Source of the DNA: Candidatus Peregrinibacteria bacterium
Lineage (GTDB): Bacteria > Patescibacteriota > Gracilibacteria > UM-FILTER-43-11
Direction of reading: 5' to 3'
Assembly (NCBI GenBank): GCA_016932495.1
Contig: JAFGCR010000030.1
Span: 1-32,845, forward strand
DNA length: 32,845 nt
Shown here: positions 14,328-25,699 of the stretch, in pieces
How the letters are laid out: each line of letters starts with the position of its first letter
Position numbering within the stretch: the stretch's first letter is position 1
Program-made: the position numbers and the translations under genes
The notes under the pieces: generated by a model
What the model was told of the DNA's origin: nothing
Seen by the model: the letters and a program-made list of their open reading frames with translations, nothing else
Database searches by the model: none

Positions 14328-14448
14328 CCGGATAGATAGCGAATTGACTTCGAATTGACATCGGATAGACACCGATTTACAGTCAATACGCAGTCCATTC
14401 GCAGTCCATTCGCAGTCCATTCGCAGTCCATTCGATATCCATACGAAA
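14328..14448. repeat. Array of eleven 11-bp units with dyad symmetry
   Basis: Starting one base after the aroD stop and ending one base before the ychF ATG, the gap divides exactly into eleven 11-bp units. The early units resemble tcgaattgaca or tcggatagaca. The later ones are tccattcgcag (three exact copies, 14394-14426) and relatives, which are reverse complements of the first type. The RNA could fold into a long hairpin with an 11-nt register. Confidence 0.85.
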
Positions 14449-15544: not shown

Positions 15545-15686
15545 ATTTGAAATGAAATTCTAAATCCGAAGCACGAAATCCGAAATAATATCAAATGTTC
15601 AAAGTTCAGATTCACAAAACGTTTGGAACATTTGTCATTTGAGTTTAGAATTTATTTCGAATTTCGAATTTAGAATTTCGAGTTTT
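15545..15686. repeat. Degenerate AT-rich repeats with dyad symmetry between ychF and glgP
   Basis: Units such as atttcgaatttcgaattt and gaaattctaaatccgaa recur. The second half, reverse-complemented, aligns with the first half (gaaattctaaat.cgaa, then caaatgttc.aa). The whole gap could form a long imperfect hairpin. An open frame runs through it, but it is not part of glgP. Confidence 0.7.
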
Positions 15687-17360
15687 ATGCCAAAAGAAAT
15701 CAAAACAGCTACGTCATCCAACAGTGTGAAAATAGCATATTTCAGCATGGAGATCGCCCTGAAGTCCGAGATGCCCAATTACGCGGGCGGGCTGGGAGTG
15801 CTGGCTGCGGATATTTTAAAATCCTGCGCGGACCTGGCTGCGCCCGTATGCGGAGTGAGCCTGATGTACCATGTCAGCGAAGACTCCCAGTATGCGTTTA
15901 AGCCGGGGCAGGAATTTAAAAAACGTCCGGAAACCGTTCAGATGCATATCGAAGACCGCTTGGTCACCATCGGCGTCTGGGAATATGTTCTGCAGGGCGA
16001 AAAAGGGAAAGTGTCCGTCTATTTTTTAGACACGAATTTTCCGGAAAATAAGCGCTGGGACAGGGACATCACCAAAGACCTGTACGCGTCGGACCGCTAC
16101 ACCCGTCTGTGTCAGGAAGCGATTTTAGGCATCGGGGGCGTGCGGATGCTGAGGGAACTGGGACTCAATGATATTGAGACCTTTCATATGAATGAAGGTC
16201 ACGCGGCTCTTCTTACCCTGTCACTTTTAAAAGAAAATGAGTTTATTGATGAGCCGGTCAGAAAACTGTGCGCGTTTACCACTCATACGCCGGTGCCCGC
16301 CGGCCATGACCACTTTGATTACAAACTAGTCCATCAGGTGCTGGGGCAGAAGGTGCCATGGCACATCAAAAAACTCGCCGGCAATGACGACCTCAATATG
16401 ACCCGGCTGGCTTTATCATTAAGCCGTAAAGTAAACGGGGTGGCCCGCAAACACGCGCAGGTCTGCAATCAGATGTTCCCGGAGTACACGTTTCAGGCGG
16501 TCACCAACGGCATCCATGTTAAAACGTGGGCCGGCCAGAGTATGGCTAAACTTTTTGATAAAGAACTGCCCGGCTGGGTACAGGATCCTGGAAAACTGAA
16601 AGAAGCCGTCAAACTGCCGGACCAGGCGCTTTTGGAAGCCCACAATACGGGCAAAAAGGTGCTGATCGACCACATCAACAACAATCCCGATTTTTTCCCG
16701 ATTCCGTCTGCCGGACTGGAGGACGGCGACCTGTTTGATATGGATACCCTCACCATCACGTTCGCGCGGCGGTTTGTGTCATACAAAAGACCACTTCTGA
16801 TCTTTAACGATCTGGAGCGCCTGCGTGATCTGGGGTATGAAAAACTCCAGCTGGTCTTTGCCGGCCCGTATCATCCCGACAACCACTATGCCATGGAGAT
16901 CTTAAACCAGCTGAGCCATTACGGGCATAGCCTGCGGGGGCAGGTCAAAGTGGCTATTTGTTCGGATTACAATCTGGCCACGGCCCAGTATCTGGTACGG
17001 GGAACGGATGTGTGGCTCAATAATCCCCAGCCTCCCATGGAAGCCAGCGGGACCAGCGGGATGAAAGCCGCGTTAAACGCCGCCCTCAATCTGTCGATTT
17101 TAGATGGCTGGTGGATCGAGGGATATGAACAGGATCCGAAAAGCGGATGGGCGTTTGGCCAGGAGCCTTCCGCAATCATCCAGCCCCGTGAAGACAGGGT
17201 GGATGCTGACGCGCTTTATAACGCGCTGGAAGACGTGATCGACTGTTATTACAACCGGAAAGATGAATGGATGGAACGCATGAAGCACGCCATTGCCCTG
17301 GGCGCTTATTTTAATACCCACCGTTGTGTGGAGGAATATATGGAGAAAATGTGGAGCTAG
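15687..17360 (+). CDS. glgP: Alpha-glucan (glycogen) phosphorylase
   Basis: A 557-aa protein of the short alpha-glucan phosphorylase family, which releases glucose-1-phosphate from glycogen or maltodextrin using pyridoxal phosphate. The start MPKEIK is chosen because the open frame upstream is only repeat sequence. Motifs: AYFSMEIAL and NYAGGLGVLAADILKS near the N-terminus, HMNEGHAAL, TTHTPVPAGHDHF, AVTNGIHVKTWA, RRFVSYKRP, and EASGTSGMKAALNAALNLSI, which carries the PLP lysine. The protein is shorter than E. coli GlgP because the N-terminal regulatory part is missing, as is normal for this subfamily. With galU (24322-25122) it suggests storage-glucan or glycan metabolism. Confidence 0.93.
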   Translation: MPKEIKTATSSNSVKIAYFSMEIALKSEMPNYAGGLGVLAADILKSCADLAAPVCGVSLMYHVSEDSQYAFKPGQEFKKRPETVQMHIEDRLVTIGVWEYVLQGEKGKVSVYFLDTNFPENKRWDRDITKDLYASDRYTRLCQEAILGIGGVRMLRELGLNDIETFHMNEGHAALLTLSLLKENEFIDEPVRKLCAFTTHTPVPAGHDHFDYKLVHQVLGQKVPWHIKKLAGNDDLNMTRLALSLSRKVNGVARKHAQVCNQMFPEYTFQAVTNGIHVKTWAGQSMAKLFDKELPGWVQDPGKLKEAVKLPDQALLEAHNTGKKVLIDHINNNPDFFPIPSAGLEDGDLFDMDTLTITFARRFVSYKRPLLIFNDLERLRDLGYEKLQLVFAGPYHPDNHYAMEILNQLSHYGHSLRGQVKVAICSDYNLATAQYLVRGTDVWLNNPQPPMEASGTSGMKAALNAALNLSILDGWWIEGYEQDPKSGWAFGQEPSAIIQPREDRVDADALYNALEDVIDCYYNRKDEWMERMKHAIALGAYFNTHRCVEEYMEKMWS

Positions 17361-17448
17361 CCGAATGGACTTCGAATAGATATCGGATAGACATCGAATT
17401 GACTAGTCCATCTGAAGTCCATCCGAAGTCAATACGATGTCAATACGA
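17361..17448. repeat. Array of eight 11-bp units, 4+4 mirror arrangement
   Basis: Begins at the first base after the glgP stop. Four units of type tcgaattgact (17361-17404) are followed by four of the complementary type agtccatccga (17405-17448), with the symmetry centre exactly at 17404/17405. Four bases later the next gene starts. Units are related to those of the array at 14328-14448. Confidence 0.88.
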
Positions 17449-17452
17449 AACT

Positions 17453-17779
17453 ATGCAAACAAGAAAAAACCCCATCACCATCAATGAAGGCTTCACCTGC
17501 CTGAAATGTAAGATGGACGTCAAACCCCACCCCGAAGGCAGCTGCCGGAACCACTGCCCGTACTGCCTGTGGTCTCTGCATGTGGATTTGGATGTGCCCG
17601 GCGATCGCCTGTCGGAATGCCAGGGATTGATGAAGCCGGTGGGGATCGAGATCAATAAGAAAAAAGGCGTCCGGATTATCCATGTGTGCCAGGCGTGCGG
17701 GTTAAAAAATTACAACCGCTCCGCCCCGGATGACAACTGGGACCTCATCTGCCAGCTCAGCCGTATTCCACAGGAATAG
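17453..17779 (+). CDS. RNHCP domain protein
   Basis: A 108-aa protein. The start is placed at MQTRKN because the open frame upstream is glgP tail plus repeat array. It has Cys pairs that look zinc-binding (FTCLKCKMD, CRNHCPYC, CQACG). The CRNHCPYCLWSLHVD stretch matches the RNHCP family, named from this motif, whose biochemical role is not established. It lies between glgP and the SLH esterase on the same strand. A nucleic-acid or protein-binding zinc ribbon is a reasonable guess only. Confidence 0.8.
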   Translation: MQTRKNPITINEGFTCLKCKMDVKPHPEGSCRNHCPYCLWSLHVDLDVPGDRLSECQGLMKPVGIEINKKKGVRIIHVCQACGLKNYNRSAPDDNWDLICQLSRIPQE

Positions 17780-21060: not shown

Positions 21061-21072
21061 AATCGTTTCCCG

Positions 21073-21119
21073 GTCTCGTGTCTTGTGTCTCGCAAGTCAC
21101 GAGTCACTAGGCACGAGAC
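21073..21119. repeat. 7-bp-period array with dyad symmetry between ftsX and recO
   Basis: The 20-base left arm (21073-21092, gtctcgtgtcttgtgtctcg) matches the complement of 21100-21119 at 17 of 20 positions, with a 7-base loop. Both arms are built from the unit gtctcgt. It fills most of the gap. Confidence 0.8.
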
Positions 21120-21120
21120 G

Positions 21121-22104
21121 CTAAAAAGAGAATCTTTTTCTTAAATAAAGTTCGATCGCCATAAAGCTACTCACTAAGCCCACTAATACTACCCCGACAA
21201 ACTGCCAGCCGAACGTGAACCAGAAGTTGTCTTCAAAATGGAGCAGGATGGCATCTAAGCCCACCAGCAGGCTTTCATTGCTGATGACACCGAGCAGATT
21301 TTTGCTCAAATAAAGCAAAGTCAGCTGGGAAAGGATGGTGCTCAGGAGTAGGGCGAAGACCGCGTACATGACCCCTTCAAACAGAAAACCTCCGCGGATG
21401 TAACCGGTGTTGGCGCCCACCAGCCGCATGATATTGATCTCGTGGCGATGGGTGTGGATGCTCAGGTTGATGCTGTTTAAAATGATCAGCACGGCTACGA
21501 CCGCGAAAATCAGATTCAGCCAGAAACCGATTCCCCGGATGAACTGGGTGATGTTCAGGATTTTCTCATTCCGGCTTTTTTGCTCCGTGTCGCTTTTTAC
21601 TTTTTCCTGATTGACGATACGGGAGAACTCATTATTTTCCAGAAACGCGATGATCCGGTCATTCGCGCCCACATCACGCCCCACGATCCGCACCACGTCG
21701 GGCAGGGGATTCTGGAGGCTGTTCCGCTCCAGAAAGGCGATCACATTGGGATACTTTTGGCCGAAACTCTGAAGCGCTTCGGCTTTACTGATGTAAATCA
21801 CGTCACTCACATCGGGTGACTGCCTTAAGCGATTAACAAGAGTTTGGATACTGTAATTTTCCACTCCCGGCAGGATCTCGACCCGGATATCCACTTTTTT
21901 GCCCACTGCCTGGATTACCGAATCGCTGGCGTAGCTTAAAGCCAGGATCAGGTTAAACACAAAAAACATCAGGGCGATGATAAGGGTGGTGGCTACCGTA
22001 AGGAGTTTGTTGCGCATTAAATTATGCCACCCGTTTTTAAGCATACGGCCGAACCCGATCCACCTTTTTTTGAAGCCATCTTTTTTAGACCCTAAAAGCC
22101 CCAT
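21121..22104 (-). CDS. ftsX: Cell division protein FtsX
   Basis: A 327-aa membrane protein. FtsX pairs with the ATPase FtsE and in Gram-positives activates peptidoglycan hydrolases at the septum. Seen: a first transmembrane helix (about 35-58), a large extracytoplasmic domain (about 60-190, with DVSDVIYISKAEAL and an LPDVVRI segment), then three helices (about 200-222, 245-270, 300-322) with the conserved cytoplasmic loop HRHEINIMRLVGA. No ftsE is next to it, although the two are usually adjacent. A -10 TATAAT lies at 22131-22136 on the minus strand, with no good -35. Confidence 0.92.
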   Translation of the reverse strand: MGLLGSKKDGFKKRWIGFGRMLKNGWHNLMRNKLLTVATTLIIALMFFVFNLILALSYASDSVIQAVGKKVDIRVEILPGVENYSIQTLVNRLRQSPDVSDVIYISKAEALQSFGQKYPNVIAFLERNSLQNPLPDVVRIVGRDVGANDRIIAFLENNEFSRIVNQEKVKSDTEQKSRNEKILNITQFIRGIGFWLNLIFAVVAVLIILNSINLSIHTHRHEINIMRLVGANTGYIRGGFLFEGVMYAVFALLLSTILSQLTLLYLSKNLLGVISNESLLVGLDAILLHFEDNFWFTFGWQFVGVVLVGLVSSFMAIELYLRKRFSF

Positions 22105-22130
22105 TTGGTTTTATTTTTTATGTTGATTCG

Positions 22131-22136
22131 ATTATA
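22131..22136 (-). promoter_or_regulatory. -10 element upstream of ftsX
   Basis: TATAAT on the minus strand, 27 bp before the ftsX ATG; the -35 hexamer at the right distance (TTATAA) is poor. Confidence 0.45.
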
Positions 22137-22178
22137 CCTTAATTCCGATTAATTATAAATTTTAAATAATTCAATTTT

Positions 22179-22234
22179 TCTGAAGGCGCGATTTCGCAAT
22201 CGCGCCGGCGCGGATTATTATCCGCGCCTTCAGA
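22179..22234. repeat. Perfect three-way-junction (cloverleaf) element
   Basis: The outer stem tctgaa/ttcaga (22179-22184/22229-22234) encloses two directly abutting hairpins of 22 nt each: 22185-22206 (ggcgcgatt, loop tcgc) and 22207-22228 (ggcgcggat, loop tatt). Both have perfect 9-bp stems and 4-nt loops. It lies in an otherwise AT-rich gap. It looks like a REP-type or small transposable palindrome. Confidence 0.8.
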
Positions 22235-22261
22235 GTGAATGGTTATTATTTTATTTAAAAT

Positions 22262-22657
22262 TTATTTAAGGAGACTCGATTTATATTTTTCCGGCTGATA
22301 CGGTTTTAAACGGACTACCCGGATGTGGGGAAATTTCAGTTTCAGGATTTGGGTATCCGCTTTTTGGTCATATCCCAGGCCGATCACATCCGGCTTATGG
22401 TCGATGATACATTGGTAAAAATTATCCTTATGCCCCAGAAGGACTTTATCGATGAATTTGATCTTACTGAGCGCTTCATACCGTTCCCGTTCTTTGTGTT
22501 TGGGCGGACGGCATTTCATCCGCTCGACATTGGAATCGCGCGCGACCACAATATAGACCTTATCCCCAAGTGCTTTAAGCTGCCGGAAAAAATCCAGATG
22601 ACCCTCGTGGATCCCGTCGAACGTGCCGAAGCCCATTACTTTAACAACCTTTGACAT
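22262..22657 (-). CDS. Cytidylyltransferase-superfamily nucleotidyltransferase (FAD synthase RibL / TagD-like)
   Basis: A 131-aa protein. The start MSKVVKV is chosen over an ATG 7 codons upstream, which lies in repeat sequence. The fold signature GTFDGIHEGHLDFF holds the HxGH nucleotide-binding motif (HEGH). Then come VARDSNVERMKCRPPKHKERER and DVIGLGYDQ, typical of archaeal-type FAD synthases (RibL) and glycerol-3-phosphate cytidylyltransferases. It transfers a nucleotide from CTP or ATP to a phosphorylated acceptor. The RDxNVxRxK...PP signature leans to FAD synthase. It lies between a TPR gene and ftsX on the same strand. Confidence 0.8.
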   Translation of the reverse strand: MSKVVKVMGFGTFDGIHEGHLDFFRQLKALGDKVYIVVARDSNVERMKCRPPKHKERERYEALSKIKFIDKVLLGHKDNFYQCIIDHKPDVIGLGYDQKADTQILKLKFPHIRVVRLKPYQPEKYKSSLLK

Positions 22658-22726
22658 GTGACCTTTGACATTTAACATCTAAAAAACAAGTCAATTGTCA
22701 AATGTCAGGTGTCAATTGTCAAATGT
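22658..22726. repeat. Degenerate tgtcaaat repeats with dyad symmetry
   Basis: The units tgacattt and caattgtcaaatgtca recur on both orientations either side of ctaaaaaacaag, so the gap can fold back on itself. Confidence 0.6.
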
Positions 22727-25122: not shown

Positions 25123-25189
25123 AATAATCAGGTTGTAGTGAGTAGTACGTAGTGAGTAGTGGCTATAGACTACGTACTACTCATTCTCA
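25123..25189. repeat. gtagt repeats with dyad symmetry between hsp20 and galU
   Basis: gagtagtacgtagt (25140-25153) pairs perfectly with 25169-25182. Further imperfect copies of agtgagtagt lie on both sides. The gap is almost entirely this element. Confidence 0.75.
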
Positions 25190-25624: not shown

Positions 25625-25625
25625 A

Positions 25626-25696
25626 TTGTGATTCGTGTCTCGTGTCTTGTGTCTCGTGTCCGATAAACTCACGAGTCACGAATCACGAGTCACGAT
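25626..25696. repeat. 7-bp-period array with dyad symmetry between ftsH and hsp20
   Basis: The unit gtctcgt recurs about four to five times (25631-25660), then the complementary unit acgagtc or acgaatc recurs four times (25669-25695). The unit is the same as in the array at 21073-21119, 4.5 kb away. Confidence 0.82.
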
Positions 25697-25699
25697 GGG

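Follow-up and report, generated by a model that had tools for sequence, protein, structure and literature searches.

Palindromic arrays of short tandem units between genes of a Patescibacteria genome as putative intercistronic stems with exchangeable sequence

The gap between a GlgP-like carbohydrate phosphorylase gene and an RNHCP-domain protein gene is filled, in the analysed window (a stretch of 32,845 nucleotides, contig 45 of a 1,175,011-base (1.18-Mb) Patescibacteria genome of 98% completeness), by a quasi-palindrome of eight tandem 11-bp units. Comparison with related genomes revealed that the persistent property at such boundaries is the palindrome, its position and its length, which was beyond what the first-pass annotation could see from a single window. 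We tentatively favour the explanation that the arrays specify an intercistronic stem in the transcript, the structure and length of which are under selection while the units turn over, over a neutral mutational product and over a sequence-specific binding site.

Inspection of the sequence established that the array is real. The GlgP-like gene (15687..17360, plus strand, Pfam PF00343; its open frame runs from a TTG at 15639, the gene caller preferring the ATG at 15687) ends with the TAG stop codon at 17358–17360, which is directly adjoined by unit 1. The left arm (17361..17404, plus strand) is composed of four 11-bp units of the type TCGAATNGACN, in the order CCGAATGGACT, TCGAATAGATA, TCGGATAGACA and TCGAATTGACT, and the right arm (17405..17448, plus strand) of four units of the type NGTCNATNCGA, in the order AGTCCATCTGA, AGTCCATCCGA, AGTCAATACGA and TGTCAATACGA, which are complementary in register to the left arm. 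The centre of the array lies exactly at the junction of units 4 and 5. Only four bases, AACT (17449..17452, plus strand), separate the right arm from the start codon of the RNHCP-domain gene (17453..17779, plus strand, Pfam PF12647, ATG at 17453), and a T run is absent; the gap 17361–17452 consists of the eight units plus 4 bp. The identity at lag 11 amounts to 24/33 positions in the left and 29/33 in the right arm (shuffles: mean about 8.6, maximum 20), and 31 of the 44 arm positions are complementary (20,000 shuffles: mean 11.0, maximum 24), so that neither symmetry nor periodicity is due to chance. The coordinates, the 4+4 register and the filling of the gap up to 4 bp before the ATG had been correctly read in the first-pass annotation; the mirror symmetry described there as exact is so for the unit register and inexact for the sequence. 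A second palindromic 11-mer array of the window (14329..14445, plus strand), between the genes of a type I 3-dehydroquinase and a YchF-type GTPase, contains the same units tcgaattgac and tcggatagaca in a different copy number and order, again as described.

Throughout the genome, a two-unit 11-mer pattern gave 39 forward and 32 reverse matches, compared to none for the reversed control, and these matches group into about 20 arrays. They precede unrelated genes, among them those of SecA, an ATPase F subunit, a T2SS F protein and a nucleotidyltransferase, which rules against gene-specific regulation and bears out the earlier suggestion of a repeated element type rather than a gene-specific site. 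Most 11-mer arrays start 0–5 nt past a stop codon and end 4–6 nt before an ATG, according to gene calls on draft genomes by a small in-house script instead of a standard annotator. The commonest copy number is 4+4, which is also found in several arrays of G016, a different genus; one-armed arrays exist as well. In two-armed arrays the left type is always ahead of the right type. Core positions inside the unit are strongly conserved, the mismatch positions are fixed, and the first variable position, read along transcription, is A in 53 of 62 left units and T in none, A or C being favoured in the right units. This polarity follows transcription in 15 of 17 co-directional arrays (p=0.002), and the same polarity was found in five of six G016 arrays whose right end has an ATG, one being a tie (orientation taken from the ATG by eye). 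Shine-Dalgarno-like sites are rare ahead of the genes of this genome. Another 11-bp unit family (TTGTGGGGCGA-like) was encountered at L046 17926–17976 and L050 1536–1586, once within a called gene.

The organisation is not restricted to 11-mers. The intergenic lag spectrum of 364 kb of this genome peaks at 7, 11, 8 and 12 and their multiples, shuffles being essentially signal-free and coding sequence carrying little signal. In this genome, its congener G001, G002, G012 and G033 taken together, stop-to-start gaps are filled alike by palindromes of 7-, 8-, 9- and 12-bp units, which makes helical phasing an unlikely cause of the 11-bp period. The median palindrome arm is 26–33 bp across the well-sampled unit lengths. 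In the window, 7-mer palindromic arrays on the minus strand fill the FtsX–RecO gap (21061..21120) and the entire stop-to-start gap that follows the FtsH gene (25625..25699), and two further ones are located at 22637..22726 and 25123..25189. The sampled parts of G003, which belongs to the same family as this genome, and of G019 showed no such arrays, nor did 50 kb of E. coli. Array palindromes occupy 42/155 co-directional, 7/38 divergent and 2/21 convergent gaps in this genome and 57/239, 12/65 and 4/40, respectively, in G001; the co-directional excess over divergent gaps is not significant in either genome singly (p about 0.08). Very short gaps of about 30–40 bp (L042 3696–5193 and similar) contain runs of A/T-rich heptamers that have a single arm and reach up to the start codon.

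The same boundary in relatives, whose comparison the first-pass annotation had proposed, carries unrelated palindromes and not the conserved unique sequence that would have pointed to a gene-specific site. The GlgP-like protein is 88% identical to that of G001, a Patescibacteria MAG, and the glgP–RNHCP boundary there holds an 11-mer palindrome of other sequence (TTCAATNGGNC); the corresponding palindrome is a 7-mer in G002 and a 12-mer in G013. Replacements at other boundaries are from 7 to 8, 7 to 9, 8 to 7 and 11 to 12; the congener thus has 9-mer palindromes in place of the arrays at 21061..21120 and 25123..25189 and an 8-mer palindrome in place of that at 22637..22726. In two 11-to-12 replacements the outer ends are retained, namely ACCGAATAG and an ACGAA motif ahead of the start, and a start-proximal motif CAATACGAA is common to 11-mers and 12-mers in two species. 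Some arrays are plainly conserved by descent, and one boundary shared with the congener has 4+3 units here versus 3+6 there. The previously suggested rebuilding by slippage and inversion is consistent with this variation in unit number across species. However, a constant arm order and a polarity that tracks transcription make inversion unnecessary, and slippage alone is insufficient because unit family and period are replaced at the same boundary. In G016 (L070), the gap past the GlgP-like gene contains several copies of a 12-bp direct repeat, ACCTGATAAACC, running into an N-masked stretch. Elsewhere in the window, a 221-bp stretch (22065–22285) spanning the end of the FtsX gene, a gap and the end of the next gene is fully identical to L039 of the congener, with flanks of about 86% identity, as would result from recent exchange or strong constraint, and does not score above the cut-off of any Rfam family.

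Sixty-seven of the 127 gaps syntenic with the congener align not clearly better than shuffles. Within this unalignable set both gaps are palindromic in 29 cases, only one in 8 and 9, respectively, and neither in 21 (p=1.5e-4), and the length-corrected Spearman coefficient for palindromicity is 0.40. After adding a local-alignment filter, 38 gaps were left, for which the agreement gave p=2e-4 at a threshold of 13 and 1e-5 at 12, was not significant at 11, 14 or 15, and reached p=0.033 in a length-stratified permutation. We read the agreement across species as real yet threshold-sensitive, several tests having been run at more than one threshold. Where palindromic gaps can be aligned, paired sites have a substitution rate of 0.101, compared to 0.172 outside the arms (p=4e-6) and 0.215 at arm sites that are mismatched. 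Single changes at mismatches create a pair in 21 of 32 cases, one third being expected, and double changes keep the pair in 7 of 12, which alone is not significant (p=0.12). Quasi-palindrome correction could produce such pairing numbers, but fixed mismatch positions as in the 11-mer units are not among its predictions.

On this basis we propose a scenario for the arrays as intercistronic stems. A gap between co-directional genes would hold a quasi-palindrome of tandem short units, and the transcript over the junction is predicted to form one long imperfect stem extending from just past the stop to just before the next start. In analogy to what has been proposed for intercistronic REP hairpins, this stem might serve as punctuation between cistrons, insulating either translation or decay. 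As each left unit can pair with each right unit, the stem would survive the gain and loss of units, and the unit family at a boundary may change through slippage and copying from other arrays. Selection would then presumably act on stem structure and length (arms of about 25–45 bp) for a role in mRNA punctuation, the units being mere building material. Such a stem is supported by the stop-to-start anatomy and its recurrence with 7-, 8-, 9- and 12-mers, the modal 4+4 copy number in two genera, the median arm length of 26–33 bp, the unit swaps at the same boundary, the agreement in palindromicity, the slowness of change at paired sites, the polarity and the rarity of Shine-Dalgarno-like sites. 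The threshold dependence of the agreement, which loses significance at scores of 14 or more, the lack of a significant co-directional excess and the one-armed arrays count against it, as does the predicted folding. Due to the polarity of the arrays, folding is poorer for the sense RNA than for the antisense strand, with a mean difference of 5.5 kcal/mol for the 11-mers; the mRNA stem is therefore not optimised for stability, and an optimum of sense-strand RNA stability is contradicted for the 11-mers.

More hesitantly, we consider it possible that the arrays represent an unnamed class of intercistronic element, widespread in part of the Patescibacteria, in which palindrome position and length are selected at particular gene boundaries and whole sequence, unit and period are swapped through copying from one array to another. 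Inheritance in such a non-coding element would apply to the architecture and not to the sequence. Many boundaries in streamlined genomes would then carry a structural element which is invisible to sequence conservation, because the letters turn over and the shape stays, and which would clearly exemplify the conservation of a structure independent of its sequence. It would also bear on the separation of cistrons in bacteria with few Shine-Dalgarno sites.

The main rival, which we regard as less likely than the stem, is a neutral mutational origin, in which slippage makes the units, template switching or quasi-palindrome correction copies the arm, and the gaps fill up to the gene ends because coding sequence is intolerant, without any function. 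Fast turnover, varied periods, changing copy numbers and one-armed arrays agree with such a process, and correction would give the same restoration of pairs at mismatches. However, correction would not be expected to yield fixed mismatch positions or a transcription-linked polarity, and the preference for 4+4 in two genera, the persistence of palindromicity at particular gaps after complete sequence replacement and the absence of arrays from the sampled part of the same-family genome G003 likewise speak against it. If it nevertheless applied, a strong, clade-restricted mutational process would build palindromic tandem arrays at gene ends.

Recognition of the units by a sequence-specific RNA- or DNA-binding regulator at the ribosome-binding region is appreciably less probable. 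It has been proposed for the closest published case, the TAACTGA heptamers before start codons in Beggiatoaceae (PMC4679880), which as direct repeats are known from Beggiatoaceae, Cyanobacteria and Bacteroidetes (MacGregor 2015, PMC4679880). Those repeats resemble the present arrays as short tandem intergenic units just upstream of the starts of functionally unrelated genes, in genomes with few Shine-Dalgarno sites and with a strain-specific distribution (PMC4679880), and the position of the right arm close to the ATG in most 11-mer arrays corresponds to their proximity to start codons. They are based on one unit, repeated directly in all but a single case, related heptamers being rare as direct repeats (PMC4679880). 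In contrast, the arrays described here are two-armed and inverted, comprise several unit families and periods (7, 8, 9, 11 and 12 bp), fill stop-to-start gaps and exchange their units at the same boundary. The strongly conserved core positions of the 11-mers, the start-proximal motif shared by 11-mers and 12-mers in two species and the rarity of Shine-Dalgarno sites would suit a regulator; a swap of units and periods at one gene would be intolerable for a sequence-specific site, and the downstream genes are unrelated.

Spread of the arrays as REP-like mobile palindromes by RAYT (Y1) transposases appears very improbable. REP sequences are 20–40-bp unit palindromes with a terminal tetranucleotide tag (GTAG or CGTC) and are often linked to RAYT genes (PMC3733652); like the arrays, these REP/BIME elements are palindromes repeated outside genes, frequently in the space between two genes, and are plausibly transcribed (PMC3733652). 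The palindromes reported here differ in being built of tandem short units, their ends coincide with gene ends and read CCGAAT and TACGAA, and a GTAG or CGTC tag was not seen at their foot. Four Y1_Tnp matches exist in this genome (RAYT-like open frames on contigs C14, C33, C6 and C23; L153, L154, L155 and L054) as well as in the congener, and the 11-mer family is patchy among close genera, as transposition might predict. However, no periodic array lies within 230 bp of any of the four Y1 genes of this genome, and arrays are present in G004, G021 and G022, where Y1 was not found, so that Y1 presence is mismatched with array presence across genomes.

A role in transcription termination or as promoter-leader elements is equally improbable. 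In its favour, a normal hairpin-plus-T-run and a -10-like hexamer precede one 11-mer array and its 12-mer orthologue (L054 11746–11895), and another array (L048) comes after TATAAT. However, the arrays are not followed by a T run, as the G+C-rich stem of an intrinsic terminator would be, convergent gaps, in which terminators would be expected, contain the fewest array palindromes, and -10-like hexamers with five or more matches were found upstream of 9/25 arrays, compared to 34/166 control stops. With this enrichment not being clear, a promoter embedded at the stop codon is confined to single suggestive cases.

Two further systems invite comparison. The STRR heptanucleotide repeats of cyanobacteria are short intergenic 7-bp tandem units known as direct repeats, and we know of no palindromic gap-filling organisation among them. 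Integron attC sites, which have a defined polarity and conserved R and L boxes, likewise place an imperfect palindrome between a stop codon and the following gene. The arrays differ from them in their repeated units and in their location within a conserved housekeeping gene order instead of cassettes, and an attC core was not seen by eye. A scan of plasmids gave no match, and no known Rfam RNA family matched above the gathering score. The 11-mer and 12-mer patterns match viral contigs, but no unit cluster there is a gap-filling palindrome, which disfavours viral carriage. A literature search, with most subscription journals outside it, found no prior reports of such arrays in Patescibacteria. 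The three-unit 11-mer pattern was detected in 4 of 353 genomes of the class, all of one family and patchy among close genera; the unit families therefore rise and fall fast. As an independent observation in the same class, G046 (L120–L122) is only 15% coding with TGA as a stop, which suggests that TGA is read as an amino acid in this genome.
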